A stretch of 64,000 bases of DNA from a virus. The notes below the pieces were generated by a model that did not search any database, was not told the origin of the DNA, and saw only the letters and a list, made by a program, of their open reading frames with translations. The DNA is taken from positions 124,001 to 188,000 of the IMG/VR virus record IMGVR_UViG_3300023208_000003, one strand, 5' to 3'. Both the position numbers and the translations under genes were made by a program. Each line of letters opens with the position of its first letter. Position 1 is the first letter of the stretch. This document shows positions 4,414-42,083 of this stretch, in pieces.

Positions 4414-5967
4414 ATGCTTACTTGTCAAATCTGTGGTTATCAACACCCAACAATGTTGGCGCCTGCGCATATTTCAAAGCATAAATTGACTGCTGTTCAA
4501 TATCGTGAGTTATTTCCTGGCGCAGTACTTCGAATTCAATCAACGGTATCAAAAGAAAAAATGTCAGCATCTAAAAAAGGGCAAAAACCCTATAATGCTG
4601 GTAAAAACATTTCAGAAGAGCAAAAGCAAAAGCAATCTCAAACAATGAAAGCACGCTATCTTAATGGAGAGATCATTCATTGGAACACAGGCAAAACCAC
4701 TTCGGAACAAACAAAAGAAAGAATACGAAAAGCTACTAAAGGTCAGCAATTAACAGATGAACAGAAAGCAAAACATCTGGAAGGAATTAGACGATATAGA
4801 AATTCTAAAAATTATGTTCCTGGTATGTTAGGAAAACACCATTCCAAAGAAACAAAAGAAAAACTTTCAAGGAATGTAAGAAAAACTTGGAATAAAAAAA
4901 CAGATAATTTAATAGAAGTGTGTATTAAAAAAGCTCAGTCTGATAATTTAAAAGTCTTAAAAATTGAATACAATTATTGGTTTGACTTTGAATGTAATGT
5001 TTGCGGAACACATTTTACTTTTACGCGTCAAATTTTTAGAGATTCGACAAAACAAGGAATAGAATTGTGTCCTACTTGTTATCCGCGACTTAATGGTAGA
5101 AGTAAAATGGAAATCGACTTTTACTGTGAAATTCAAAAAATGTGGCCTACCGCAGTTGCAAGTGATACTAAAATTCTTGGCGGTAAAGAAATTGATGTCC
5201 TCATTAAAGAAAAAAGATTAGGGTTTGAATTTACTGGAATTTATCATCATTCGGAGTTAAAAGGTAACCCTAAATATCACTTACTTTGGAAGCAACAATT
5301 TGCAGTTAAAGAAGATCATAAAATATTTACAGTTTTTGAAAATGAATGGGTGCTAAAACGCGATTTAGTGTTATCGCGAATTGCGTCAATTTTAGGAGTA
5401 AATAAAACTTTTTATGACGCGCGTAAATGCAAAATAAAACAGCTAACGTCTCAAATGAAAAATAGATTTTTAAATGATAATCATCTTCAAGGTAGAGATA
5501 CTTCTCCAATTTCTTTAGGCTTATTTTATCAAGACACGTTAGTATCCGCGATGACGTTTAAAAAAACAACAGTTGTTAAAGGCGGCACTGGCGAAGAATG
5601 GGAATTGAGTCGTTTCTGTAATTTAAAATTTTGTACAGTTAGAGGAGCAGCTGGAAAATTGCTTTCGCATTTTCAGCAGAATTATAACACTGATCATCTA
5701 TCAATTATTTCATTTGCAAATAGACGATGGTCAAATGGAGAATTTTATGAAAAGATCGGTTTTGAATTCGCTGGAACTACGCCTCCCTCATACTGGTATT
5801 TTAAAGGAAACAGCATTGATATTCAGCATCGAAGCAATTTTATGAAACACAAAATTATAAAAAAGTTTGGTGGTGATCCAATTAAAACAGAATGGGAATT
5901 AGCGCAAGAAAATGGTTTCAATCGGATTTGGGATTGTGGAAATACTAAGTGGATTTTGAGCTATTAG
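4414..5967 (+). CDS. Putative free-standing homing endonuclease (EDxHD/Vsr-like) with NUMOD3 motifs
   Basis: 517 residues. An N-terminal Cys2-His2-like finger (CQICGYQH...HISKH) is followed by NUMOD3-like DNA-binding helices (SEQTKERIRKATKG, SKETKEKLSRNVRK). A CxxC...CPTC zinc ribbon precedes a nuclease core: SKMEIDFYCEIQ, EIDVLIKEKRLGFEFTGIYHHSE, then FTVFENEW. This core resembles the EDxHD / very-short-patch-repair fold of phage homing endonucleases. The C-terminal region (about 345-517) is shared with the minus-strand gene at 20413-21972: HLQG, EWELSRFCN, GAAGKLL, YEKIGF, IWDCG. It sits between the sheath gene and the next late gene, a typical homing site. No ribosome-binding site better than AGAG is seen. 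Confidence 0.8.
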   Translation: MLTCQICGYQHPTMLAPAHISKHKLTAVQYRELFPGAVLRIQSTVSKEKMSASKKGQKPYNAGKNISEEQKQKQSQTMKARYLNGEIIHWNTGKTTSEQTKERIRKATKGQQLTDEQKAKHLEGIRRYRNSKNYVPGMLGKHHSKETKEKLSRNVRKTWNKKTDNLIEVCIKKAQSDNLKVLKIEYNYWFDFECNVCGTHFTFTRQIFRDSTKQGIELCPTCYPRLNGRSKMEIDFYCEIQKMWPTAVASDTKILGGKEIDVLIKEKRLGFEFTGIYHHSELKGNPKYHLLWKQQFAVKEDHKIFTVFENEWVLKRDLVLSRIASILGVNKTFYDARKCKIKQLTSQMKNRFLNDNHLQGRDTSPISLGLFYQDTLVSAMTFKKTTVVKGGTGEEWELSRFCNLKFCTVRGAAGKLLSHFQQNYNTDHLSIISFANRRWSNGEFYEKIGFEFAGTTPPSYWYFKGNSIDIQHRSNFMKHKIIKKFGGDPIKTEWELAQENGFNRIWDCGNTKWILSY

Positions 5968-17136: not shown

Positions 17137-17749
17137 AGAATTTTTCAAATATAATCCTCGTGAACCCGCTCTTTGGATGTATGCTGAAAGACAAGACGTT
17201 TTAGACTGGCTTTGGCAGGCAGCTCCGCATAAAACGCAATTTGACGTAAATGATGATCTGATTGTTTTTTCAAAAGACGATTTCCAGCTCGAAGATAACG
17301 TAATAACAGCATTGCCAGTTCGTTTAGATACTCCAAAAAAATTAGTATTGAAAATGAAAAATTTACAAACTTTACGAGGTATACCAGAAGGCGTAATGTA
17401 TGGAACTTTAATAATCGCTTCTGATAAATTAACAGAGCTTGATTATTTGCCATATAGCGTGTCTTCATTGAATATAATAGATTGCCCAAATGTTCATTCG
17501 CTTCATGGAATTCACGATAAGGTTAAACGAATGACGATGATTATTGTTGGTGAAGGAATTGAAAGCTCAATTCTTGGTCTTCTAACAATTAAAGATTTTT
17601 CAGGAATGATGACTAATACATCTAATTCTAACGCTTCGCTAAATAAAGCTTGTCAGATTTTAAATGCTGCAATTATTCATAAGCAAGATTTACTTGATTG
17701 CAAAGCAGAACTAATTGAAAAAGGATTATCAACATATGCTAAGCTTTAG
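17123..17749 (+). CDS. YAKL-family protein 11
   Basis: 208 residues, starting MPNFKEFFKYNP. A DVLDWLWQ helix, then LRR-like TLRGIPEGVMYGTLII, ELDYLPYSVSSLNII and SLHGIHDKVKRM, then LGLLTIKDF and QDLLDCKAELIEKGLSTYAKL. It is joined to both neighbours by 14-nt overlaps. Confidence 0.73.
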   Translation: MPNFKEFFKYNPREPALWMYAERQDVLDWLWQAAPHKTQFDVNDDLIVFSKDDFQLEDNVITALPVRLDTPKKLVLKMKNLQTLRGIPEGVMYGTLIIASDKLTELDYLPYSVSSLNIIDCPNVHSLHGIHDKVKRMTMIIVGEGIESSILGLLTIKDFSGMMTNTSNSNASLNKACQILNAAIIHKQDLLDCKAELIEKGLSTYAKL

Positions 17750-18413
17750 AGATTATTTAAAAGAAGAAAAACTAACAGGCTTCTTAGATACAAGAGAGGC
17801 AGTTAAACAATACATGCAGGATAATTTTTCACTCATTTCATATTCATTTAATGATTATGAAGATGATCCTGATATTGTAGAAGTTAATTTAGAGTTAACT
17901 CCACGAATAACTTTTACAAATGAACATTTACGTAAAACTGGCAGCCAATATCATCTTCCATTTAAAATTGGAGAAATTACTAATTTAGTTATTAACGCGC
18001 CGAAGTTAAATTCTACTGAAGGTTTTCCAAATTCAGCAGGACGTATTTTAATTTTAGATATGGATTTACACGAGCTGAATCACGATATTGTATTCAATGT
18101 TGGTGATTTATGCTTACGCGGCACTTATCTCATAACGTTAACAGGAATTCATAACTCCTGTCCTCATGGAGTTAGTGAGTTAGAATTTCCAAAAGGACTA
18201 CAGGGAAACGTTTTAGATTTAGCGCGTCTAGATAATCTTGACAGTGTAAGCGTTGCGCCGCATGCAATGCGACTTTCAGATGAAATTTGGAATGAACAAG
18301 TTCGTTTGGCGGCCACTATTAATGATTATCTTAGTGAATCTCGTGGTCTTGATTTATTAGAACTAAAAGCTACTCTTATTGATAATGGATTTTCAAAGTA
18401 TGCCAAGATTTAA
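17736..18413 (+). CDS. YAKL-family protein 12
   Basis: 225 residues from ATG 17736 (MLSFRDYLKEEKL; [I/L]xE-like site at YLKE). It is closely related to the next gene: both have an AVxxxxxD helix, L-P-x-K-I, LNST-x-GFP and an LRR-like TLTGIHNSCPHG. The C-terminus is more diverged (LLELKATLIDNGFSKYAKI), and the LGLLLI segment is replaced by NVLDLARLDNL. Start chosen for the conserved 14-nt overlap. Confidence 0.72.
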   Translation: MLSFRDYLKEEKLTGFLDTREAVKQYMQDNFSLISYSFNDYEDDPDIVEVNLELTPRITFTNEHLRKTGSQYHLPFKIGEITNLVINAPKLNSTEGFPNSAGRILILDMDLHELNHDIVFNVGDLCLRGTYLITLTGIHNSCPHGVSELEFPKGLQGNVLDLARLDNLDSVSVAPHAMRLSDEIWNEQVRLAATINDYLSESRGLDLLELKATLIDNGFSKYAKI

Positions 18414-19086
18414 AGAATTTTTAAAAGAAGAAACTGAATCACATTACTTTAAAAATAAAGACGCCGTACTAGATTGGTTTAGCGATTATGTTGAAACACT
18501 TGAAACTCCTGATATTAAAGTAAATAATAAAGGAGTTTTTTATGTAGCCGATGATTCAATGGATTTTACTCTTAATCCTGGTTGTTCAGTTCCTGTAACT
18601 TGGAATGGAAGAAAAGTTTATGGTTTACCAGTTAAAATAGAAGAAGCCCGTGATTTTATTGTTAAAGATGGAAGATTAAATTCAACAGTAGGATTTCCTG
18701 ATCTTGTAGATAATATTGTCCATTATCCATATGGTTTTCCTTGTGGTTTAACTGAATTTAACGACGCTGTATTTTTTCCGATGTGTAATCTTAAGTTGTC
18801 TGGAACTCAAATTAAAACATTAAGAGGTATTCATACTTCTTGTGACGCCGGTCTTGGCGATCTTTGGTTACCATTTGAACTTGACGGCCCGGTTCTTGAC
18901 ATTACAAAGCTTGAAGGTCTTAATATGGTAAGAATCGATAAAAAAATTCATCCGGCTCATTCAGATTATTTTAGATACAAGACACTTACTGAAACTATAA
19001 ATCTTGTTCTTGAAGACGGTTTTGACGCGCTTGATTTAAAAGCTGCGCTTATTGAAAAAGGATTAAGTCAATATGCGAAGTTTTAA
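18400..19086 (+). CDS. YAKL-family protein 13
   Basis: 228 residues from ATG 18400 (MPRFKEFLKEETES), sister of the previous gene (DAVLDWF, LPVKIEEAR, LNSTVGFPD, TLRGIHTSCDAG, VLDITKLEGL). It ends ALDLKAALIEKGLSQYAKF. An FLKEE capsid-targeting-like site is visible. Confidence 0.72.
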   Translation: MPRFKEFLKEETESHYFKNKDAVLDWFSDYVETLETPDIKVNNKGVFYVADDSMDFTLNPGCSVPVTWNGRKVYGLPVKIEEARDFIVKDGRLNSTVGFPDLVDNIVHYPYGFPCGLTEFNDAVFFPMCNLKLSGTQIKTLRGIHTSCDAGLGDLWLPFELDGPVLDITKLEGLNMVRIDKKIHPAHSDYFRYKTLTETINLVLEDGFDALDLKAALIEKGLSQYAKF

Positions 19087-19726
19087 GCAATTTTTAGCTG
19101 ATGAAGAAGTCGACAGTTGCTTTTTAACATTTGTAATGCAATTCAGCAAGCTTTATAATTCGCCTGAAGACTCAGAAGCGGAACGAATTGTTAGAGAAGC
19201 GTTTGAGCCTGTTTTTTCAAAGTATCACATTGAAAAAATGATTCCTTCTAAAGTAAACAAGCTTGGCGGCTTTTATTCTATAGTGCTTGTGATAGCTGAA
19301 GGGGCTCATTTAAATGTAAAAGATTTAGTTAATGAATTGACATTGTTGTATAAAGAAAAAATTGGTTCATATTCAGTTTTTGAACCTAACCCCTGGGCCG
19401 CTAGTTTGTATGTTAATCTTCCAACGTCATCAGTGTTTGATTGTGATTTTGAAGCTTTTATTACTCGTGTTAATAATAAAACTGCTAAAAATATTCACAA
19501 AACACTTTTGAATCTTGAACATCTAATGTTTCAAGATTCACTTTTTAATGGTCCGGTACTTGGAACGATGTTAATGCCGCATCTTAAAAGCGTTGGTCTT
19601 GAATTTCATTTAGAGCCGCCTGATTGGATCAAAATAATTAATGCGCAGCTTAAAGGCGATCGTGATTTGCTTGAGTGCAAGACACAACTAATTGAGGCTG
19701 GCTACGCTGAAATGGCTAAAATTTAA
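19073..19726 (+). CDS. YAKL-family protein 14
   Basis: 217 residues, starting MRSFKQFLADEE. LRR character is nearly lost; what remains are KTAKNIHKTLLNLEHLMF, LGTMLMPHL and DRDLLECKTQLIEAGYAEMAKI. It is the last gene of the 15.4-19.7 kb chain, with a late box for gp19 after it. Confidence 0.7.
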   Translation: MRSFKQFLADEEVDSCFLTFVMQFSKLYNSPEDSEAERIVREAFEPVFSKYHIEKMIPSKVNKLGGFYSIVLVIAEGAHLNVKDLVNELTLLYKEKIGSYSVFEPNPWAASLYVNLPTSSVFDCDFEAFITRVNNKTAKNIHKTLLNLEHLMFQDSLFNGPVLGTMLMPHLKSVGLEFHLEPPDWIKIINAQLKGDRDLLECKTQLIEAGYAEMAKI

Positions 19727-19803
19727 GCAAGTAATATTTATTCAATCTCAATAAAATCTCAAAATCATCAACCTTTAGAAATAAGCAAAAAATTAAAGTA
19801 GCT

Positions 19804-19811
19804 GATAAATA
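19804..19811 (+). promoter_or_regulatory. Late promoter box (GATAAATA) before tube gene
   Basis: One-mismatch late box 41 nt before the gp19 ATG. A bulged hairpin (CTTTAACAC 19813-19821 with GTGTTTAAAG 19831-19840) overlaps the expected start of transcription and, on its 3' side, the AAGGAG ribosome-binding site. Confidence 0.58.
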
Positions 19812-19852
19812 GCTTTAACACTTTACTTACGTGTTTAAAGGAGAAAAAATTT

Positions 19853-20443
19853 ATGGCTACTCTCTCACAGATTGGCATTCCAGCTTCTGGAAATGGTATT
19901 TTAGCACCAAAAATTAAGAATCGCTTTCAAGTTCGCTTTGTTGGTATTGCAAGGGCACTTGGTGGAAATGGACGTGACTTAACCGCGCAGGTAACCACAT
20001 TTACCCGCCCACAACTTGATTTTGAAGAAATTGAATTAAACCGCTACAACAGCCGCGCGTATGTTGCTGGTAAGCATACTTGGTCTGAAACAACTCTTAC
20101 TGTTGAGGATGACATTACAGGTCGTGCAGCGTATGTTGTTCAAGGTCAGCTTGAAACTCAGCAGCGCTTGATTGGCGCAGACTCAACTAATGGTCAGTGG
20201 TTGAACGCAACCCCAACGGCTTCTGGTTACAAGTTTGCAACCAAGGTTGAACAGCTTGACGGTAATGAGTTCCCTGTTGAAACTTGGATTATTGAGGGCT
20301 GTTGGATCAAGTCAGTTGACTGGGGTGATCTTGATTATCAAGCATCTGAAGCAAATACGATTCAGCTTACTATTCGTTACGACCATGCACGTCAAGAACT
20401 TACAGGTCAGGGTTATGGAACGGCCATTGGAGGCACGTTATAA
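19853..20443 (+). CDS. gp19: Tail tube protein (T4 gp19-like)
   Basis: 196 residues. Tube-subunit features: an N-terminal NRFQVRFVGI strand, TAQVTTFTRPQLDFEEIELNRYNSRAYVAGK, WSETTLTVEDD, and a C-terminal VETWIIEGCWIKSVDWGDLDYQASEANTIQLTIRYDHA. It forms the inner tube through which DNA passes. T4 gp19 is 163 residues, so this is slightly longer. Strong AAAGGAG site and own late box. Its last 31 nt are overlapped by a convergent endonuclease gene; no terminator separates them. Confidence 0.93.
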   Translation: MATLSQIGIPASGNGILAPKIKNRFQVRFVGIARALGGNGRDLTAQVTTFTRPQLDFEEIELNRYNSRAYVAGKHTWSETTLTVEDDITGRAAYVVQGQLETQQRLIGADSTNGQWLNATPTASGYKFATKVEQLDGNEFPVETWIIEGCWIKSVDWGDLDYQASEANTIQLTIRYDHARQELTGQGYGTAIGGTL

Positions 20444-21972
20444 GTCCAACCATAAACATCCTGTCCGCAATCATAAACGCGGTACGCTTTTACAGCTACC
20501 GCGTTTTCTTCTTCTGATAAATTTTTATTGTATTGAATATCAAAATTTTTATTAAAGTTTTTTTCTTGAAATGCAATTCGTGATATTCTAAGTAATTGTC
20601 CTTCTTTATAATAAGAGTACCCTATTTTTGATGTACGTAAATAGGTAAAACCGATTTTTTCATAAAAAGAACTAATAAAGCCCCACGTTTTATCTCTATA
20701 TGTTATTATAGATTGAGGATTAAGATTTTTTTTAAAAAACGCCAGTAATTTACCGGCACCACCAATCACATTTCCATTTGAACAATATCTTAGTAATTCC
20801 CATTCATAAGATTTATCATATCGTGGTTTTCCAAAAGTCATAACAGCGATAAGATTTTCATTATTAAATAAGCCCAAATTTATTTTTGCTGGAATAAAAC
20901 CTTGTATATGATGTTGTTCTAAAAAATCTTTAGACGTTTTTATTATTTTTACTGTGCAATTTCGCGCAAACATTCTATTTGATTTATCTAATAGACTTTT
21001 TATTCTATTTTTACAAATTTCATTTTTTGAAATCCAGTCATCTTCAAAAATATGAAATAGTTGAATATAATTTTCATTACATAAAAACGATTTATTGAAA
21101 TGATATGCAGGGTCAATTCCTTTTTTTGTTGAATGCCAATACAGCCCATTAAATTCAAATGCTATATTTTTTTTCGGTAAAAATATATCTAATTGGTATG
21201 GTTTTATAATCTGTTTTGAATCAATTATGATTTCATCATCGAACTGTTTTATCCATTCACAAATTTCATTTTGTAGTTTTGTTTTAGGATTAGAATAACA
21301 AGTTGGACAAGTTGGAATATTATTTGCTGATAATCTAGATATTTTAAAAGTCGTCTGACAGTCTTTGTGCTTAATTAGATTTATACGACCATTTTCAAAC
21401 GTTTTTATTATTTCAAAGTTGAAAATTTTTAATTTTTCTATTATTTCATTTAATCGTTTTTGATATCTATTAGTGTAAAATTGCTTTGATTGAAAAATTG
21501 TAGGAGCACCGTATTTGGTCATACAGGTTTGACGTTTTTTAAATTCTGCTTCTACTTTATCTCTGCTATTTGCTGCCTCTTTCATTTTTTGTTTTTGCTC
21601 TAAGGTCCTTTTGCTACCTAAATTTTTATTAGGTGTATTTTTTTCCTTGATTGTCAATAGTCTCTTTTTTGTACATTCAGGATCTTTCATTTGACAGGAC
21701 ACGGAGCAATATGTGCCAACATATCCTAATTTAAAAACACTAAATGTTAAATAACCAGTTTGACAAATTTTACATTTAGGAGGTTCAATAACATTATTCA
21801 AAATTCTAAAAATTTTTTCACTTAACGAGCGCGATTTAAACGTAAAACTTTCTTCAATTATTTCAACATATTCAGCTATTTCCACGTTTTTAGGATTTTT
21901 TAGAATTGCTGCAGCATTTTTGTTGAGATTACCGTTTTTTAAGACAATTAATTGTTTTAATTTTTCTAACAT
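20413..21972 (-). CDS. Putative homing endonuclease (EDxHD/Vsr-like), opposite strand, overlapping gp19 end
   Basis: 519 residues. CxxC...C..SCQ zinc-binding N-terminus, a KYGAPTIFQSKQF-type motif, a CPTC ribbon, then the nuclease core YQLDIFLPKKNIAFEFNGLYWHST and LFHIFEDDWISKNEICKNRI. The C-terminal region is homologous to the gene at 4414-5967 (HIQGFIPAKINLGLF, YEWELLRYC, GGAGKLLAFF, YEKIGFTYLR, VYDCG). The paralog ends soon after the DCG motif, whereas this protein runs on for extra residues encoded antisense to the last codons of gp19. This suggests insertion at the very end of the tube gene. Confidence 0.8.
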   Translation of the reverse strand: MLEKLKQLIVLKNGNLNKNAAAILKNPKNVEIAEYVEIIEESFTFKSRSLSEKIFRILNNVIEPPKCKICQTGYLTFSVFKLGYVGTYCSVSCQMKDPECTKKRLLTIKEKNTPNKNLGSKRTLEQKQKMKEAANSRDKVEAEFKKRQTCMTKYGAPTIFQSKQFYTNRYQKRLNEIIEKLKIFNFEIIKTFENGRINLIKHKDCQTTFKISRLSANNIPTCPTCYSNPKTKLQNEICEWIKQFDDEIIIDSKQIIKPYQLDIFLPKKNIAFEFNGLYWHSTKKGIDPAYHFNKSFLCNENYIQLFHIFEDDWISKNEICKNRIKSLLDKSNRMFARNCTVKIIKTSKDFLEQHHIQGFIPAKINLGLFNNENLIAVMTFGKPRYDKSYEWELLRYCSNGNVIGGAGKLLAFFKKNLNPQSIITYRDKTWGFISSFYEKIGFTYLRTSKIGYSYYKEGQLLRISRIAFQEKNFNKNFDIQYNKNLSEEENAVAVKAYRVYDCGQDVYGWTYNVPPMAVP

Positions 21973-22033
21973 AGAATTACTTTAAAATCAAAATAAATAT
22001 ATTTTATCAACATTTCATTTGGTTGTACATTGA

Positions 22034-22041
22034 AATAAATA
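22034..22041 (+). promoter_or_regulatory. Late promoter box (AATAAATA)
   Basis: 26 nt before ATG 22067, followed by TAGGAG as ribosome-binding site. Confidence 0.58.
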
Positions 22042-22066
22042 GATCATATTATTTTAGGAGAATTTT

Positions 22067-23311
22067 ATGTCTCTAGATTTTTCAGGAATTGTAGGTGGTA
22101 CCGGTATTGATCTTGAACGAACAGCAGCTGCTGTTTTTGGTCAAGCGGTTGATATTTACGCTAATCAGCAAATAAATCGAATTTTTAGCGGGCCGACGTC
22201 TGGTGAAATAACGTCACATTCTAGACCACCATATGGATTATGGGATCCAGCTTCTTACGCTGAGGATCTTGTTGCGTTTCAACCAAAACACCGCTTTCTT
22301 TTTAAGGTGATGTTTGATGTTGAACCTCAGTATCTAAATCTTTTTAAGAACCATTCTGGACAATCAGCTTTCCAATATATGGTTAAATCTATTCAACGTC
22401 CTACAATAACGTATGAATATGAAGACGTTAACTTTTACAACTTTCGTACAAAGTTTTTAAAGTCAATAAAGCACGGTGAACTTCAGTTAACATTAATTGA
22501 CGATATTCAAAATACGCTTCACGTATTTTTAGGTGAATATATTAGAGCGTTTTCTCCAATCAATCGTTCGGCCGCCCCCGCTAGTCCAATAATGTATGAT
22601 ACTGCTGGTTTTAACTTCACGGATCCTGCAGGCGTCGGGCAAGTAGATTCATCAGTACGCGGCGTATTAAAGAAAGCTAATTCTGATAATTCAATTAACC
22701 CACTCAAGTCAATAAAGATTATTCAGTTCTTTGGTCACGCAGCATGGTATAATACATTTACGCTAATTAATCCACGCGTTACATCAATCAATTATGATGA
22801 CGCATCTCATGAAGGTGGCGATCCTGGAAATCACGTAACTCTTAACTTTGATTATGACGCGCTCTATCTTGATCAAACTGTTGACTTTATCGGAGCTCCT
22901 CCGTACCCAGCCCCAAAGTCAGACATTTACGGATCAATAAATGATAGAACAATAAAAGCAGCATCGTTTAATGATAGCTTTGATCCAGCCACTGGCAGAC
23001 AAACAAGCGGTTTTGGTGTTGCACAAAGTGTTTTAGGTACTTTGCTTGGAAACGTTGGCTCAAGAATAGCGTCAAATGCAATTCAGCGAGTTACTCAAGG
23101 AGTGCTTGGGTCAAGCAATCCAATGATTGCAGGTGTGCTTGGAAATCTTGGTTATGGTGTTTCAAGTCAAGTAGGTGATATGGCTCGCCGAACAATCGGT
23201 AATACAGTGAACGGCGTTAGTCCTGGATTTATAGCGCCAAATCGTCCAGCTGTTATTGACAATAGTTCAATCAATCAAACAACTACACAACGTTACAATA
23301 ATTTATTCTAA
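22067..23311 (+). CDS. Tail-tube-like baseplate/tail structural protein
   Basis: 414 residues. The core (residues about 75-165) reads FLFKVMFDVEP...FQYMVKSIQRPTITYEYEDVNFYNFRTKFLKSIKHGELQLTLIDDIQN, a tube-protein pattern (RP...YE..DVN.YN.RTK...TLxDD) seen in T4-like tube and tube-initiator (gp54/gp48-type) proteins. The C-terminal third is Gly/Ser/Asn-rich (GVAQSVLGTLLGNVGS), perhaps a membrane- or tape-contacting tail. It lies between tube and terminase genes under its own late box. Exact T4 equivalent not certain. Confidence 0.62.
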   Translation: MSLDFSGIVGGTGIDLERTAAAVFGQAVDIYANQQINRIFSGPTSGEITSHSRPPYGLWDPASYAEDLVAFQPKHRFLFKVMFDVEPQYLNLFKNHSGQSAFQYMVKSIQRPTITYEYEDVNFYNFRTKFLKSIKHGELQLTLIDDIQNTLHVFLGEYIRAFSPINRSAAPASPIMYDTAGFNFTDPAGVGQVDSSVRGVLKKANSDNSINPLKSIKIIQFFGHAAWYNTFTLINPRVTSINYDDASHEGGDPGNHVTLNFDYDALYLDQTVDFIGAPPYPAPKSDIYGSINDRTIKAASFNDSFDPATGRQTSGFGVAQSVLGTLLGNVGSRIASNAIQRVTQGVLGSSNPMIAGVLGNLGYGVSSQVGDMARRTIGNTVNGVSPGFIAPNRPAVIDNSSINQTTTQRYNNLF

Positions 23312-23781
23312 TGAGCACAAAAACTACAATTCTTCCGTTAGAGCAAACCTTTAATATTGAAGCTGGCTCAACGCGCGCTTTACAAAACGTTTTAGAAGAA
23401 GATGATCAGATGATGGCGATATCACAAGCGACTGCAAATGAAGTCGCTCCTTATCAGGACGATGCTGAAGATAAAGAAATTGCAGAGCAAATTAAAACAA
23501 TTTATGACGCTGCAATGGACGCCTTCGATAACCAAACACAACTTGTTGAAGTTGTTGAGCCACGATACGCCGCCCGACTTGGTGAAATCGCTAATCAAAG
23601 TTTAAATACGGCTTTAAATGCAGTTGCTCTTCGTTCTAAAAATAAGAATGAAAAGCGAAAAACTGCAGCATTTGTGCCTTTTGCTAATCAAAGCAATCAA
23701 ACTAACATTGTAATGGCAAGTCGAAATGATTTGCTTAAAATGATTAAGGACAGAAAGGAAGTAATAATCGATGCAGAATAA
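23311..23781 (+). CDS. gp16: Small terminase subunit (T4 gp16-like)
   Basis: 156 residues, acidic N-terminus, helical centre (DKEIAEQIKTIYDAAMDAFDNQTQLVEVVEPRYAARLGEIANQSLNTALNAVALRSKNK) and basic tail. Length, coiled helical character and position just before the large subunit match T4 gp16 (164 residues), which recognises DNA and stimulates gp17. Assignment rests mostly on context and composition. The start overlaps the previous stop codon by one base. Confidence 0.65.
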   Translation: MSTKTTILPLEQTFNIEAGSTRALQNVLEEDDQMMAISQATANEVAPYQDDAEDKEIAEQIKTIYDAAMDAFDNQTQLVEVVEPRYAARLGEIANQSLNTALNAVALRSKNKNEKRKTAAFVPFANQSNQTNIVMASRNDLLKMIKDRKEVIIDAE

Positions 23782-24427
23782 ATCGTTAAAGCAATTTCTA
23801 TGTGAAGATGAAAATTTAACTCTTGAGAGGGGTGTTGAAGTTTTGCAAATGCTTTTTGGTGATCAATTTGTTATTGACGGTGATAGAGTCAACTCTACTC
23901 AAAGTTTATCATTGAATTTTTCACATAAACGCTGGTTCAAAGGAACACACATGCCTGTAAAATTTGGCAAAATTCAAGGTAATTTTAATGTAACAAATAT
24001 GGATTTTAATTACAATAAAGAACTACCAATTTACGTTAAAGGAAATTGTTATCTCACTAGTAATGGATTTAAAACCATTGAGCATTTTCCTGAGTATATA
24101 GGCGCAATTCTTTCAATTTACGATAATCCAGAAATAAAAACGTATTCTAACATTCACAAACACGTAAAATATTGTGGAAAGGGAATAGTAATTGATCCTC
24201 TTCACTGCCCATATCTTGGTTTTCTTTTAGTTAAAGATAACTTATCAATTTTTAACATCAAATCATATTTAACTTTTGATATTTCAGTAGTAATGGGCGA
24301 CCCTCATAATGAAGAAGCTTTTCAAGCAAAGCAAATCATTAACGATTACAAAGTTAAAAACGGCGATTTACTTGATTGCAAAGCTGAATTAATAGAACAA
24401 GGACTTACAGAGTTTGCGAAAATATAA
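23771..24427 (+). CDS. YAKL-family protein 15, between the terminase genes
   Basis: 218 residues starting MQNKSLKQFLCEDEN, overlapping gp16 by 11 nt. LRR-like: GNFNVTNMDFNYNKELPIYVKGNCYL, TIEHFPEYIGAIL, TYSNIHKHVKYC. Then LGFLLVKDN and GDLLDCKAELIEQGLTEFAKI. It separates small and large terminase genes, which are adjacent in T4. FLCE fits the capsid-targeting-like site. Confidence 0.74.
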   Translation: MQNKSLKQFLCEDENLTLERGVEVLQMLFGDQFVIDGDRVNSTQSLSLNFSHKRWFKGTHMPVKFGKIQGNFNVTNMDFNYNKELPIYVKGNCYLTSNGFKTIEHFPEYIGAILSIYDNPEIKTYSNIHKHVKYCGKGIVIDPLHCPYLGFLLVKDNLSIFNIKSYLTFDISVVMGDPHNEEAFQAKQIINDYKVKNGDLLDCKAELIEQGLTEFAKI

Positions 24428-24457
24428 TATCTATCGATAATCTTATTCAGATTAGCC

Positions 24458-24465
24458 CATAAATA
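24458..24465 (+). promoter_or_regulatory. Late promoter box (CATAAATA) before terminase
   Basis: 28 nt before ATG 24493. The leader has no evident Shine-Dalgarno sequence, unusual for this genome. Confidence 0.5.
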
Positions 24466-24492
24466 AATGAAAGTACCAATCTTTCATATTTT

Positions 24493-25356
24493 ATGGCAAA
24501 CATATACATCAAAAGAGCTTTCGCAGAAAGTGAATATACGTACAATGAAGTTCTTGAACTCGAACGTTGTACAAATGATCCAATCTACTTCATAGAAAAA
24601 TACGTAAAGGTTCAGCACCCAACACGAGGACCTGTCCCATTTATTCTGTATGACTACCAGAGACACATGATCGATGTCATACATAACAATAAAGACTCGA
24701 TTATCTTGTGTTCCAGACAGCTTGGTAAGACCACGGTAGTAGCAATCTATCTACTTTGGTTAACCACATTTTTTGAGGACAAGCTTGCTATTATTGCATC
24801 AAAGGCAAACAGTCACGCGATTGAAATTATGTCTCGCATTAAGTTTGCTTATGAGGAACTTCCGCACTGGTTAAAAGCAGGTTGCAAATATTACAATCGT
24901 CACAGCATTGAATTTGATAACGGCTCAATCATAAAGTCAGAAGCAACAACTGAAAAAACAGGTCGAGGCAGTTCGCCATCAATTTTGTTCCTTGACGAAA
25001 TTGCATTTATTTCTCATAAAATTCAGGAAGAGCTTTGGGCGTCATTAACACCATCTCTTTCTACTGGTGGTAAATTTATTCTCACCTCAACACCAAACGG
25101 AGACTCTGATCTTTACGCGACTCTCTGGCGCGGCGCAATGGCTGGTACAAACAATTTTAAGCCGTTTAAAGCGCTATTTCACCAGCACCCTGAGCGTGGT
25201 CCAGAATCTGGTTACTATGAAGAAATGAAAGGTAAGCTTGGTGAGATTAAGACTCGACAGGAATTAGACTGTTGCATTGGTGAAACTGAAGTAACAGTTG
25301 AAAATAAAAATAAAATACAAAATATTTCAATAGAAAAATTATTTGAACTTTTATGA
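24493..25356 (+). CDS. gp17: Large terminase N-terminal fragment fused to a 28-residue N-intein
   Basis: 287 residues. Residues 1-259 are the ATPase half of the packaging motor: Walker A SRQLGKTT (74-81) and Walker B ILFLDE (164-169). From Cys260 (codon 25270) the last 28 residues are an intein N-half, CCIGETEV...IEKLFELL, matching the C-x-x-x-[D/E]-T-x-V block A. The fragment stops there. The rest of the terminase lies in the gene at 25931. It closely resembles the atypically split AceL-TerL intein, whose N-part is about 25 residues. Trans-splicing is expected to join ...RQELD to CEFLSSD... The stop overlaps the HNH start (ATGA). Confidence 0.9.
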   Translation: MANIYIKRAFAESEYTYNEVLELERCTNDPIYFIEKYVKVQHPTRGPVPFILYDYQRHMIDVIHNNKDSIILCSRQLGKTTVVAIYLLWLTTFFEDKLAIIASKANSHAIEIMSRIKFAYEELPHWLKAGCKYYNRHSIEFDNGSIIKSEATTEKTGRGSSPSILFLDEIAFISHKIQEELWASLTPSLSTGGKFILTSTPNGDSDLYATLWRGAMAGTNNFKPFKALFHQHPERGPESGYYEEMKGKLGEIKTRQELDCCIGETEVTVENKNKIQNISIEKLFELL

Positions 25357-25967
25357 CAAACATAAATCATAGACAAATTTGGCAAAATAATTTCGGTTCA
25401 ATACCAATTGATGAATATGGCAGAAGCTATGAAATTCATCATATAAATGGCAATCATTTTGATAATTCAATTGAAAATTTAAAATGCGTTTCAATTGATG
25501 AACATTTTCAAATTCATTTAAGTCAAGGAGATTTTGGTGCGTGTTTTTTAATTGCTCGCAGAATGGGATTATCATCTGAAGAATTAAGCAATTTGCAAAA
25601 AGGAAATAAATTATCTGAAATTACAAAAGCTAAAATTTCAATAGCGCATAAAAGGGGACATTTTGAAGGTAAAATTAAATCATGGAATGAAGGATTTAAA
25701 GGGTATAAATTGAAGCTAAAAATTCAACGAAAAGGAAAACGTTTTTCTTCAAAAATATCAGAAGAAGATGTTATCAAAATTAAAAATGATTTTATTGAAT
25801 GGAAAAAAACTCAGCCTAACAAATTACCATTTAAACTTTCACATGAAAAAGCTTTTGCACGTTTAATAAAACCAAAATTCCCGTTATTAAAAACAGACGT
25901 AACTATAGTTAATATTCTTAAAGGCAAATCATGGAAACCAGAGATTTTGAATATAAACCCAATTTAA
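25353..25967 (+). CDS. HNH endonuclease gene lodged in the terminase break
   Basis: 204 residues. The HNH core is YEIHHINGNHFDNSIENLKCVS (His29-His30, Asn/His following) and EHFQIHLSQ. A NUMOD3-like SEITKAKISIAHKRG stretch and a basic C-terminal DNA-binding region (DVIKIKNDFIEWKK...SHEKAFARLIKP) follow. It is placed exactly between the two intein halves, so it is probably the homing enzyme that spreads the split-intein locus. It overlaps the upstream stop by 4 nt and the downstream gene by 37 nt. Confidence 0.88.
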   Translation: MTNINHRQIWQNNFGSIPIDEYGRSYEIHHINGNHFDNSIENLKCVSIDEHFQIHLSQGDFGACFLIARRMGLSSEELSNLQKGNKLSEITKAKISIAHKRGHFEGKIKSWNEGFKGYKLKLKIQRKGKRFSSKISEEDVIKIKNDFIEWKKTQPNKLPFKLSHEKAFARLIKPKFPLLKTDVTIVNILKGKSWKPEILNINPI

Positions 25968-27028
25968 AAAAGTTAAAAATTAAAACCTTATTTGGAATGA
26001 AATCATTTGATGGAATAAGAAAAATACTTAAAAAAGGTTTAATTGAAATTCAGACACACCATTTTAATTTAAAATGTTCATTGACCCATAAAGTTTTAAC
26101 TGAACGAAATTGGATTTCTGCAGATGAATTACAGGTTGGTGAAAAAATTGAAACTATTAATGGTGAAGAAGAAATTATTTCAATTTCAATAGATCATGAA
26201 AAAGAAGAAACTTTTTATGATTTAGTAAATGTTGAAGGTGGAAATACATATCTAACCAATGGAATTGTTTCACATAATTGTGAGTTCTTATCATCTGATG
26301 CACTATTAATTAATACTTTGCGCCTTATTGAGTTAAAAGCTTCCCTACCAATCTCTGAAGAACTCGGATTTAAATACTGGAAACCGATTGGAGGTCGCGG
26401 AAAAGTTTATCTGATGAGCGTGGATATAGCAACCGGAAACGGTAATGATTTCTCAGTTATTGATGTGTTTGAATTTCCATCTCTTGAACAAGTGGTTCAA
26501 TGGCGCTCAAACGTTATGAACATTCCGATGCTTTACCAAGCAATAAAATACATGCTTTCAATGTTGACAAGACAAGATTCACACGGATTTAGACCTGATG
26601 TTTTTTGGACATTTGAACGTAATGGAGTTGGTGAAGCAATCAAAGCGCTCCTTTTCAATGATGAAAAACCAAATGAATTTGCTGAACTTGTAAGCGATAA
26701 GCCAGATGAAATGGGAATGAACACGTCTGGTAAGACAAAAATTCTTGCATGCCTTCACGTAAAGCAACTTGTTGAAAAACAAAAAGATGGATTAAAGCTA
26801 AATTCAGATAAAACAATTTTTGAGCTTCAAAATTTTGTTGCTTCTGGCGGTTCCTACGCAGCAAAGAAGGGAGCAACAGACGATACTGTTTCATCTCTTC
26901 TTTTGATATCTAGACTGTTAAAGCAAATCTGTATGTACGATGACCGCGCAATTGATATTCTTTACGATTATTCTAACCAATTTGATGACACACAAACAGA
27001 AGCACCTATGCCTATTTTAATCGTGTAA
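25931..27028 (+). CDS. gp17: C-intein fused to large terminase C-terminal nuclease fragment
   Basis: 365 residues. Residues 1-116 are the intein C-half: MKSFDGIRKI, a CSLTHKVL block-B-like TxxH segment, LQVGEKIE, FYDLVNVEGGNTYLTNGIVSHN ending in His-Asn. Cys117 (codon 26279) is the +1 nucleophile and the first terminase residue. Residues 117-365 are the terminase remainder with the nuclease motif YLMSVDIATGNGNDFSVIDV, FERNGVGEAIKALL and the TKILACLH region. Combined spliced product: 259 + 249 = 508 residues. AAAGG lies about 8 nt before ATG 25931 and fixes the start. Confidence 0.9.
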   Translation: METRDFEYKPNLKKLKIKTLFGMKSFDGIRKILKKGLIEIQTHHFNLKCSLTHKVLTERNWISADELQVGEKIETINGEEEIISISIDHEKEETFYDLVNVEGGNTYLTNGIVSHNCEFLSSDALLINTLRLIELKASLPISEELGFKYWKPIGGRGKVYLMSVDIATGNGNDFSVIDVFEFPSLEQVVQWRSNVMNIPMLYQAIKYMLSMLTRQDSHGFRPDVFWTFERNGVGEAIKALLFNDEKPNEFAELVSDKPDEMGMNTSGKTKILACLHVKQLVEKQKDGLKLNSDKTIFELQNFVASGGSYAAKKGATDDTVSSLLLISRLLKQICMYDDRAIDILYDYSNQFDDTQTEAPMPILIV

Positions 27029-27076
27029 TAATATTGAAACAATTTGGTGATATGATAAACTTTTTGAGGTAGGCTT

Positions 27077-27844
27077 ATGTTACGCGTAAAAACTTGTTGG
27101 ATTTCAGATCTTCATCTTGGTAGTACTCAGTGTCAAGCTGATAAACTCCTTGAGTTTCTTAAAGTGCTTGATGCTCAAAAGCTTTACTTAGTCGGTGATA
27201 TTATTGATTTTTGGGCTCTTTCAAGAAAATCATTTTGGCCAACTGATCACAATACAGTGGTTCAAAAAATACTTCGAATGGCGCGGCATGGTGTTGAAGT
27301 CATTTATATTCCAGGTAATCATGACTCTCCAGTACGTGATTTAGCTGATATGACATTTGGAAATGTACAAGTTAAGCTAGAAGATATTCATGAGCTAAAA
27401 AATGGTAAAAAGTTTTTAGTTACTCATGGCGACCAATTTGATACAATATCAAAGCATTATGGTTGGCTTTCAAAATTCGGCGCCATAGGCTATGACATTT
27501 TGCTTCAGCTAAATCGTTTTACACGATTAATTCAAAAGCTTTTTAACATTGAATCTCACTTTTCACTGTCTTCATTTATAAAGTACAAAGTTAAGAACAT
27601 TGTAAAATTTATAAGTGATTATGAGAATGAAATTTGTGAAATTTTAAAGAATGAAGAACTAGATGGAATAATTTGCGGGCATATTCATCATCCTGAGCTA
27701 ATAAAAAATAATGATTTCATTTACTTGAACTGCGGTGATTGGGTAGAAAGCTTAACAGCAATTATTGAAACTTATGAAAATGAATTAATTTTAATTAAAA
27801 AAATTGAAAATGACATTATTGAAATTAAAAAATTATCCATCTAA
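27077..27844 (+). CDS. PlcP/LpxH-type metallophosphoesterase (probable phospholipid remodelling)
   Basis: 255 residues. All calcineurin-fold motifs are present: SDLHLG (Asp11, His13), GDIID (40-44), GNHD (80-83), THGD (His117) and GHIHH (201-205), plus LNCGDWVES (217-225), typical of the PlcP / UDP-diacylglucosamine-hydrolase-like group. PlcP of Sinorhizobium and marine bacteria removes phosphate head groups from phospholipids under phosphorus starvation, and a glycosyltransferase is encoded next to it. Here too a glycosyltransferase gene follows, with an endonuclease gene between. LpxH activity in lipid A synthesis is the alternative. GAGG precedes the ATG. Confidence 0.8.
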   Translation: MLRVKTCWISDLHLGSTQCQADKLLEFLKVLDAQKLYLVGDIIDFWALSRKSFWPTDHNTVVQKILRMARHGVEVIYIPGNHDSPVRDLADMTFGNVQVKLEDIHELKNGKKFLVTHGDQFDTISKHYGWLSKFGAIGYDILLQLNRFTRLIQKLFNIESHFSLSSFIKYKVKNIVKFISDYENEICEILKNEELDGIICGHIHHPELIKNNDFIYLNCGDWVESLTAIIETYENELILIKKIENDIIEIKKLSI

Positions 27845-28769
27845 ATAAAAATCCAAGATTTTTAGTGGCCGTTTCTTTTAAAAATGATATTTTTTGATCA
27901 ATTTTAAACGTATATTGACTTTTTACTTCAATAATAGTATTAATTTTTGGAATAAAAAAGTCAGGATAATATCGCTTAATTTTGTTATCATATTCATAGA
28001 TAATTTTGGGCATATCTTTTTTAGAAAAAAGAATTTCTTCTTCATTAAATCCTTCATCTAATAACAAAGAAAATGCCTTTGGCTCAAATCCTTGTAATAA
28101 AATTACTTTACCGGATGGTAAAGTAAATTCATGTTTCTTTTTAAATCTGTTATTACAACAAATTTCTGCTACTGATGGAATATGTGCTGGATAAAATACA
28201 TCATATTTTTCATTTAAAACTTGTTGTAAATAATTTTGATCAAAATTATGTGGACGTTTATATTTTTGCATCATTGTTTGAGCTTTTTTAAATTTTATGC
28301 TGTCTAATTTACTAATATTATCCACTCCATATCTTTTAATTAAGGTAAATTTACATTTTTGTTTAACATCTTTACGTTGAAAGACATTAGTAATTCCATA
28401 TTTTTCTAAAAGACTTTTTTCTAAATTTTGCTTTATAAGCTGTTTTCCTTCATTGCTTGATGCTTCTCTTTTAGAATGAAATAATGCATATCCATATTGT
28501 AATCCAGGAAAATCAATTTCCCGTCGAGTTGCCGGGCCACGCCGCCACATACATTCAAGTCCGCTAATTGGACATATTGGAACATTTACGTGACCTAATA
28601 ACAAGTGATATATTTTACGTTGAAAATTCCATTCATTTGGAATTTTCAACGTTTTAAAAGCATTTTCGATTTCAAAAAACCAACTTTCTTTTTGAATAAA
28701 AAATAGATTTCTTCGTTTTCTTTTTGGATTTGATAAATATTCAAGAATTTTACTTTGTATAATAATCAT
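27825..28769 (-). CDS. Putative homing endonuclease with PD-(D/E)xK-like site
   Basis: 314 residues on the opposite strand between two co-oriented metabolic genes. The N-terminus has a helical region and CPISGLECMW. Repeated LxxKYGxxNVxxxxxVKxK motifs (KYGITNVFQRKDVKQK, RYGVDNISKLDSIKFK) are common in phage endonucleases. The C-terminus has RYYPDFFIPKINTIIEVKSQYTF, a PD...E-x-K nuclease signature. Its 3' end overlaps the phosphoesterase by 20 nt. It has its own GGAG site (minus strand) and a late box at 28800-28807. Confidence 0.75.
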   Translation of the reverse strand: MIIIQSKILEYLSNPKRKRRNLFFIQKESWFFEIENAFKTLKIPNEWNFQRKIYHLLLGHVNVPICPISGLECMWRRGPATRREIDFPGLQYGYALFHSKREASSNEGKQLIKQNLEKSLLEKYGITNVFQRKDVKQKCKFTLIKRYGVDNISKLDSIKFKKAQTMMQKYKRPHNFDQNYLQQVLNEKYDVFYPAHIPSVAEICCNNRFKKKHEFTLPSGKVILLQGFEPKAFSLLLDEGFNEEEILFSKKDMPKIIYEYDNKIKRYYPDFFIPKINTIIEVKSQYTFKIDQKISFLKETATKNLGFLFRWIIF

Positions 28770-41278: not shown

Positions 41279-41309
41279 CAGTATGTTTAATTTTTGCATG
41301 CTCTATTTT

Positions 41310-42083
41310 ATGGAACCTTTATTTGTATATTTTGTTTATGGGTTAATTGATAAAAGAACCGATTTACCCTTTTATATTGGCAAAGGAAAACACGATAGAC
41401 CATTTCAACATTTTGCACCACAATCGATAAAGCGTGATAAAAAAAGAAATTCTCGAAAATTAAATAAAATTTTAAAATTACAATCATTAGGTTTTGAAAT
41501 TCCAATTGTTTATTACGCATATTTTATTAATGAGCAAGACGCTTATGATTATGAGACTCAACTAATAATTCAATATGGAAGAAAAGGTATAGATGAGAAT
41601 GGTATTCTTACAAATTTTTGTTTAGGAGCAAAACCTCCTTCTTTTAAAGGAAAAACGTTAGCTGAAATTATTGGACCTGGGTGGGAAGAAAAAGTAGAAG
41701 CTCGTCGTCAAAAGCAATTAGCTCGTGGTGGATATGGGCCTAAAAAACATAGCGAAGAAACTAAAAGAAAAATAAGTGAAAAAATGTCTGGCACGAATAA
41801 TCCAATGTATGGAAGAGAAAAATCAGAAAACTTTATAAAAATAATGAAAGAAAAGATGTCAATAAAAAGTGCTGGTGCTAACAATCCTATGGCAAAAACA
41901 TATGAAATTATTACTCCAAATAATGAACATTTTTTTATAACAGGTAACCTTAAAAACTTTTGTAATGATAATAATTTATTTTATGGAACTATGAAAGGGA
42001 TGATTGATAAAAATAGGACTGCTAGATTTGGTAATTGTAAAGGTTGGTATATTAATGAAGTGTCGTCCAGCAAAAAAAGATGA
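41310..42083 (+). CDS. GIY-YIG homing endonuclease with NUMOD3 motifs
   Basis: 257 residues from ATG 41310 (alternatives 41283, 41298). N-terminal GIY-YIG domain: FVYFVYGLIDKRTDLPFYIGKGKHDRPFQHF, with GIY degenerated to VYG and YIG intact, the Arg at R30, and catalytic Glu probably in DYETQLIIQYGRKG. The middle has SEETKRKISEKMSGTNNPMYGREKS (NUMOD3), and the C-terminus has a NUMOD1-like AKTYEIITPNNEHFFITGNLKNFCND. Inserted between nrdB and glutaredoxin, a known hotspot type for T4-like mobile genes. No good ribosome-binding site. Confidence 0.85.
   Translation: MEPLFVYFVYGLIDKRTDLPFYIGKGKHDRPFQHFAPQSIKRDKKRNSRKLNKILKLQSLGFEIPIVYYAYFINEQDAYDYETQLIIQYGRKGIDENGILTNFCLGAKPPSFKGKTLAEIIGPGWEEKVEARRQKQLARGGYGPKKHSEETKRKISEKMSGTNNPMYGREKSENFIKIMKEKMSIKSAGANNPMAKTYEIITPNNEHFFITGNLKNFCNDNNLFYGTMKGMIDKNRTARFGNCKGWYINEVSSSKKR

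Follow-up and report, generated by a model that had tools for sequence, protein, structure and literature searches.

Natural split inteins with very short N-terminal parts are used in protein labelling and semisynthesis. Fractured genes, that is, split inteins with a nuclease gene in the break, were reportedly described by Dassa in 2009. Among the described systems, the closest to the locus considered here are the split inteins of the large terminase gene terL, whose published N-terminal parts (intein-N) comprise 25-37 residues and from which the Cat intein (6dsl) was derived as a consensus of GOS-TerL and AceL-TerL (PMC11766414). Two further systems are relevant, namely Pseudomonas phage MIJ3, in which an HNH gene lies between the halves of PolB, joined by a split intein (PMC6892783), and the endonuclease I-TevIII, which is known from a group I intron and whose RB3 version is an active, dimeric enzyme (PMC2988022).

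Herein we describe an interrupted terL in a stretch of 64,000 nucleotides (the window), which is a portion of a 197-kb virus record. The interruption is very probably a mobile element, in which an atypically split intein of 28 + 116 residues would trans-splice TerL and the HNH protein encoded in the break would home into empty alleles. TerL split inteins of the AceL/GOS/Cat type in a fractured-gene arrangement are already known, and the window locus shows the testable features of that type; what is added here is the breadth of the family, an I-TevIII-like HNH apparently specialised on the terL site, and an allele footprint.

Compared with AceL-TerL, GOS-TerL and Cat, the window intein interrupts the same gene, has the HINT fold and is likewise split atypically near its start (after about 25-37 residues in this class); with AceL-TerL and Cat it shares Cys1 and Cys+1, and Cat is the best match of its C-terminal part (intein-C) by sequence as well as by structure. 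However, the identity to Cat is about 34% in the structure alignment, intein-C has 116 residues against 104 with a longer N-terminal lead, and the second residue of the intein is Cys (CCIGETEV), unlike in the three others. With the fractured genes reported in 2009, the locus has in common a split intein in an essential phage gene and an endonuclease encoded on its own between the two half-genes, but here the nuclease is an I-TevIII-like HNH, while other TerL breaks hold GIY-YIG or MTES/DUF559-like genes or none. The same insertion point (QEH/C...HN/C, slashes marking the splice points) is found in Aeromonas PX29 gene 17A/17B, Providencia PSTRCR_127 and Serratia 92A1 terL, and the PX29 record itself annotates an N-intein and a GIY-YIG + C-intein; in these phages, however, the nuclease is GIY-YIG, fused to the C-half in PX29. 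MIJ3 also has an HNH gene between two genes of a split-intein protein, but this is DNA polymerase B, not terminase, and the intein is another one. The named nuclease closest to the window HNH is intron-associated endonuclease 3, I-TevIII, encoded in the T4-type nrdB intron; the two share 44% identity along some 125 aa, and the window HNH matches phrog_12324. I-TevIII resides in a group I intron, whereas the window HNH resides in a split intein. A preliminary description of the locus had taken the arrangement as new and intein-N as remarkably short. Neither view holds, since the arrangement recurs in many metagenomic loci and cultured phages, is annotated in PX29 and is published for MIJ3 PolB (PMC6892783), and 28 residues are normal for the class. 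The fast splicing proposed there was likewise put too strongly for a reading from sequence.

Anatomy of the interrupted terL and identity of the intein

Three overlapping ORFs on the plus strand at 24493-27028 correspond to a TerL N-half, an HNH protein and a TerL C-half (Table 1), and this reading is more than chance, as Pfam matches to Terminase_6N and HNH_3 (Table 1) and a weak one of the C-gene to Intein_splicing (7e-4) indicate. The N-gene stop and the HNH gene start share ATGA, the HNH gene and the C-gene overlap by 37 bp, and the G+C content of intein-N, HNH and intein-C is 0.20, 0.27 and 0.25, as against 0.40 and 0.37 in the exteins. The ORFs lie as first described, with the HNH gene between the half-genes, and once the intein pieces are removed, 259 + 249 = 508 TerL residues are left. 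Upstream, at 2-24427, at least 13 paralogous genes have a common C-terminal signature like D(I/L)L(D/E)CK(A/T)ELIE.GLS..AKL; those tested, including the gene directly 5' of terL (23771-24427), have no PHROG or Pfam match.

Table 1. Features of the terL locus and of its variant stretches, in window coordinates
Feature	Position	Strand	Remarks
N-gene	24493-25356	+	287 aa = 259 TerL residues + 28-residue intein-N; C-terminus ...TRQELD + CCIGETEVTVENKNKIQNISIEKLFELL-stop
TerL N-extein, ATPase half	24493-25269	+	259 aa; Walker A CSRQLGKTT; Pfam Terminase_6N 7e-14; phrog_5989 terminase 4.9e-53
Intein-N, CCIGETEV...LFELL	25270-25353	+	28 aa; stop 25354-25356; block A aligned with family, Cys1 invariant; absent in intein-free relatives
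HNH endonuclease gene, I-TevIII-like	25353-25967	+	204 aa; Pfam HNH_3 1.7e-9; phrog_12324 intron-like endonuclease 4.3e-24
C-gene	25931-27028	+	365 aa = 116-residue intein-C + 249 TerL residues
Intein-C, ending YDLVNVEGGNTYLTNGIVSHN	25931-26278	+	116 aa; YLTNGIVSHN then Cys; Cat intein 6dsl by profile and Foldseek
TerL C-extein, nuclease half	26279-27025	+	249 aa from Cys+1 (CEFLSSDALL); phrog_36964 terminase 4.9e-23
Small diverged patch at terL start, contig 429 of sample 3300044511	24457-24531		10 mismatches + two 2-base gaps; flanks 100% identical
Stretch with second, diverged terL allele, possible co-conversion tract	25182-27358		L094 + L001; sampled at two edges only

A profile of six intein-C sequences, the window's and five cultured-phage homologues, matched in the PDB the Cat intein 6dsl (E 2.9e-22), VidaL (9.8e-10) and gp41-1. 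The AF2 model of intein-C is a confident HINT half (pLDDT 95.6), whose top PDB match in Foldseek is again 6dsl (TMq 0.81, 34% identity). These profile and fold matches agree with the first description in the kinship of the intein to AceL-TerL, the latter compared only via the Cat consensus structure. Moreover, every catalytic position tested is there, namely Cys1, the block B His, the terminal His-Asn and Cys+1. Cys1 is invariant in all ten intein-N sequences aligned; His53 (block B), His115 and Asn116 are invariant across 42 intein-C sequences, and Asp97 is conserved with His53 and the terminal His-Asn across 38-42 homologues, the conservation of the terminal SHN[C] or HN being partly ascertained as the search pattern included that ending. 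Mutation of the block A Cys or of the C-terminal His-Asn in related phages, proposed beforehand as a sign against splicing, is not what these aligned sequences show.

By the established domain layout of T4 gp17, the insertion in terL falls where the ATPase domain gives way to the nuclease domain, so that each unspliced TerL half would be one domain. A two-chain motor is thus conceivable, in which the halves work as separate unspliced polypeptides in the manner of Aeh1 NrdA while the intein is dead. We regard this as highly improbable, because a dead intein would decay, whereas the tested catalytic residues are retained in the window intein and its family alike, and intein-C pairs in relatives have dN/dS of 0.05-0.18 (synonymous sites near saturation). 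A different alternative is an RNA intron, with the terminase joined at the RNA level as for T4 nrdB, which the nearness of the HNH to I-TevIII, known from a group I intron (PMC2988022), might suggest. However, a search of the interrupted region for group I/II intron RNA gave no Rfam match, either at the gathering threshold or at E<=1, and conserved in-frame intein blocks stand at both insertion ends with the HINT fold intact; an RNA intron in terL was rejected on these grounds, its probability being next to nil. The element is accordingly supported, by sequence and model, as an AceL/GOS/Cat-type TerL split intein, for which trans-splicing is predicted.

Empty sites and recurrence at the terL site

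The nearest intein-free TerLs in IMG/VR, L095 and L096 (N-extein identity to the window 66% and 62%), span the predicted junction contiguously (QELDCEFLSSDALL; KQELDCEFLSSDALL). Their junction reads QELD/CEFLSSDALL, the insertion being exact and scarless, and from it the splice points are placed at Asp(-1)/Cys1 and Asn116/Cys(+1). Since there is a single Cys at the relatives' junction and the C-x-x-G/E-x-T spacing aligns with the family, the intein starts at the first of its two Cys. The RQELD-CEFLSSD junction of a continuous terminase, which had been deduced from the window itself, is thereby found uninterrupted in relatives that lack the intein. In L095, L096 and L102, a second TerL-like ORF adjoins terL (tandem paralogues of about 30-36% identity).

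A pattern scan with intein-C yielded 168 confirmed IMG/VR loci, and the insertion site recurs, with the split at a similar point, in dozens of IMG/VR loci. Cultured phages with the site are Providencia PSTRCR_127, Serratia 92A1, Vibrio 1.244.A, Vibrio K469 and Aeromonas PX29, and those sharing both insertion site and split point include several Straboviridae/Ackermannviridae phages; a single scan of genome contigs gave three clear relatives, all Bacteroidota/Chlorobi MAG contigs. The inteins occupying this terL site are contiguous mini-inteins in some loci (L016, L017, L023, L024, L058) and split in others, where the break holds no nuclease gene (L014, L026, L031, L036, L038, L040, L079), an HNH gene (L020, L033, L041, L054, L088), or GIY-YIG/SegE-like, MTES_1575/DUF559-like or further nuclease genes, these classes being hand-checked lists, as GIY-YIG proteins share NUMOD3 with the HNH and confound an automated census. 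The nuclease genes are free-standing or fused to either TerL half. In 22 loci examined in detail besides the window, the whole set of intein-N, HNH and intein-C is present, with an HNH-C-half fusion in one. For example, L215 has this arrangement and an intein-N (CVDGNTIVETEDGKIKIEDLYKKL) that presumably nearly matches AceL-TerL.

Some variants were also met. Ten members with the same HNH combine Cys1 with Thr at +1 (SHN/T; L191, L192, L200, L202, L210, L211, L214, L218, L227, L231), a rare nucleophile pairing, and came through the HNH search, not the intein-C ending pattern. A second TerL intein site lies in the Walker A motif (GK/T), where Vibrio VP-1 (L009) has an intein and L097-L099 have an insertion at the same point, and a third beside Walker B (DE/C), with related contiguous inteins in L004 (Vibrio VmeM-32), L051, L090 and L269 (Desulfovibrio phage 7757).

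The HNH gene and the allele footprint

The His/Asn catalytic columns of the HNH are invariant in 19 homologous sequences, and residues 27-58 are predicted to form strand-strand-helix. A sequence search of the PDB gave nothing useful, and a fold search with the HNH model gave no match below 1e-3, probably because the shape is elongated and multi-module. When loci were scanned with an alignment of the break HNHs, 35 of the 80 best had the intein-C profile, and nearly all full-length HNH matches had intein-C and TerL directly downstream. The protein is a member of an I-TevIII-like family, and the full-length sequences nearest to it sit nearly all in split TerL inteins. Four further homing-endonuclease-like genes occur in the window, at 4414-5967 (+), 20413-21972 (-), 27825-28769 (-) and 41283-42083 (+), with matches to phrog_3339, DUF7487 and phrog_314.

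The proposed mechanism has its observed basis in the anatomy, the homology, the intact catalytic positions, the empty sites in relatives, the recurrence and the constraint in relatives, while trans-splicing, cleavage of empty alleles by the HNH and homing are what we infer from sequence. The three overlapping genes would be translated separately; the intein pieces may then associate into one HINT domain that would excise itself via Cys1, the block B His, Asn116 and Cys+1, so joining RQELD to CEFLSSD in a terminase of 508 residues. The HNH protein, made separately, would cut terL alleles without the insertion, and repair from the intein copy would spread intein, HNH gene and flanking terL DNA together.

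It may be objected that the intein trans-splices but the HNH is a passenger or no longer homing, the cassette now being a vertical, fixed and obligatory part of terL. In fact, HNH distances follow those of the TerL C-extein (Spearman 0.59) more closely than those of intein-C (0.38), so long vertical residence fits as well as recent homing, and the seven nuclease-free members listed above are still split. The catalytic residues of the HNH are nevertheless intact, related HNH pairs have dN/dS of 0.11-0.33 (synonymous sites near saturation), and between-strain divergence is concentrated at the cassette; a passenger HNH is on the whole rather unlikely.

That divergence was seen in contigs from two samples. 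L001 (contig 447, sample 3300044511, 27 kb) aligns to window 26389-53477. Of its mismatches, about 155 in number, all lie within 26391-27358 apart from two, which are the 2 SNPs in the next 26 kb, to 53477. In terL, 88 of its 110 mismatches are at third codon positions, and this predominance indicates a real allele rather than errors. L094 (contig 703, sample 3300044996) is identical to the window over 18493-25181, and from 25182, which is 88 bp 5' of the intein, has three third-position mismatches before its end at 25192. Over 17641-26124, the cassette included, contig 429 of sample 3300044511 does not differ from the window except for a small patch (Table 1). Thus a second terL allele, known from its two edges, coexists in otherwise nearly identical phages: the divergence sets in about 88 bp ahead of the intein, extends 1,080 bp past it and reaches no further than terL and the beginning of the following gene, the contigs being otherwise about 99.99% identical. 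When the diverged sequence 5' of the insertion site was searched for by exact match, only the contig already known was recovered.

Such a footprint is suggestive of homing, being what homing with co-conversion would leave. It is possible, although we put it forward tentatively, that the cassette has been caught spreading in one natural phage population: genomes that are near-clonal would then be distinguished by little more than a terL tract of roughly 2-3 kb surrounding the split intein, with tract ends that differ by sample, and the HNH, of the I-TevIII family, would have made split terL inteins its specialised home. The local divergence might instead have arisen by ordinary recombination among related phages or by chimeric assembly, and we give this a real but less than even chance. 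Contigs break off within the region in both samples (L002 at 26124, L001 at 26389, L094 at 25192), the second allele is seen at its edges only, no contig crossing its insertion site, the patch at the terL start is an extra diverged one, and metagenome assembly could distort allele patterns; on the other hand, this reading sits poorly with the third-position excess, which speaks for a real allele, and with the restriction of divergence to terL and the next gene's start, only 2 SNPs being present over the 26 kb beyond.

Altogether, the locus and its relatives provide many natural, sequence-diverse candidates for split inteins with a very short N-part. The three states at one site, that is, contiguous mini-intein, split without a nuclease and split with various nucleases, form a natural series for the origin of fractured genes, and the terL allele footprint offers a natural case in which homing into an essential phage gene could be tested.
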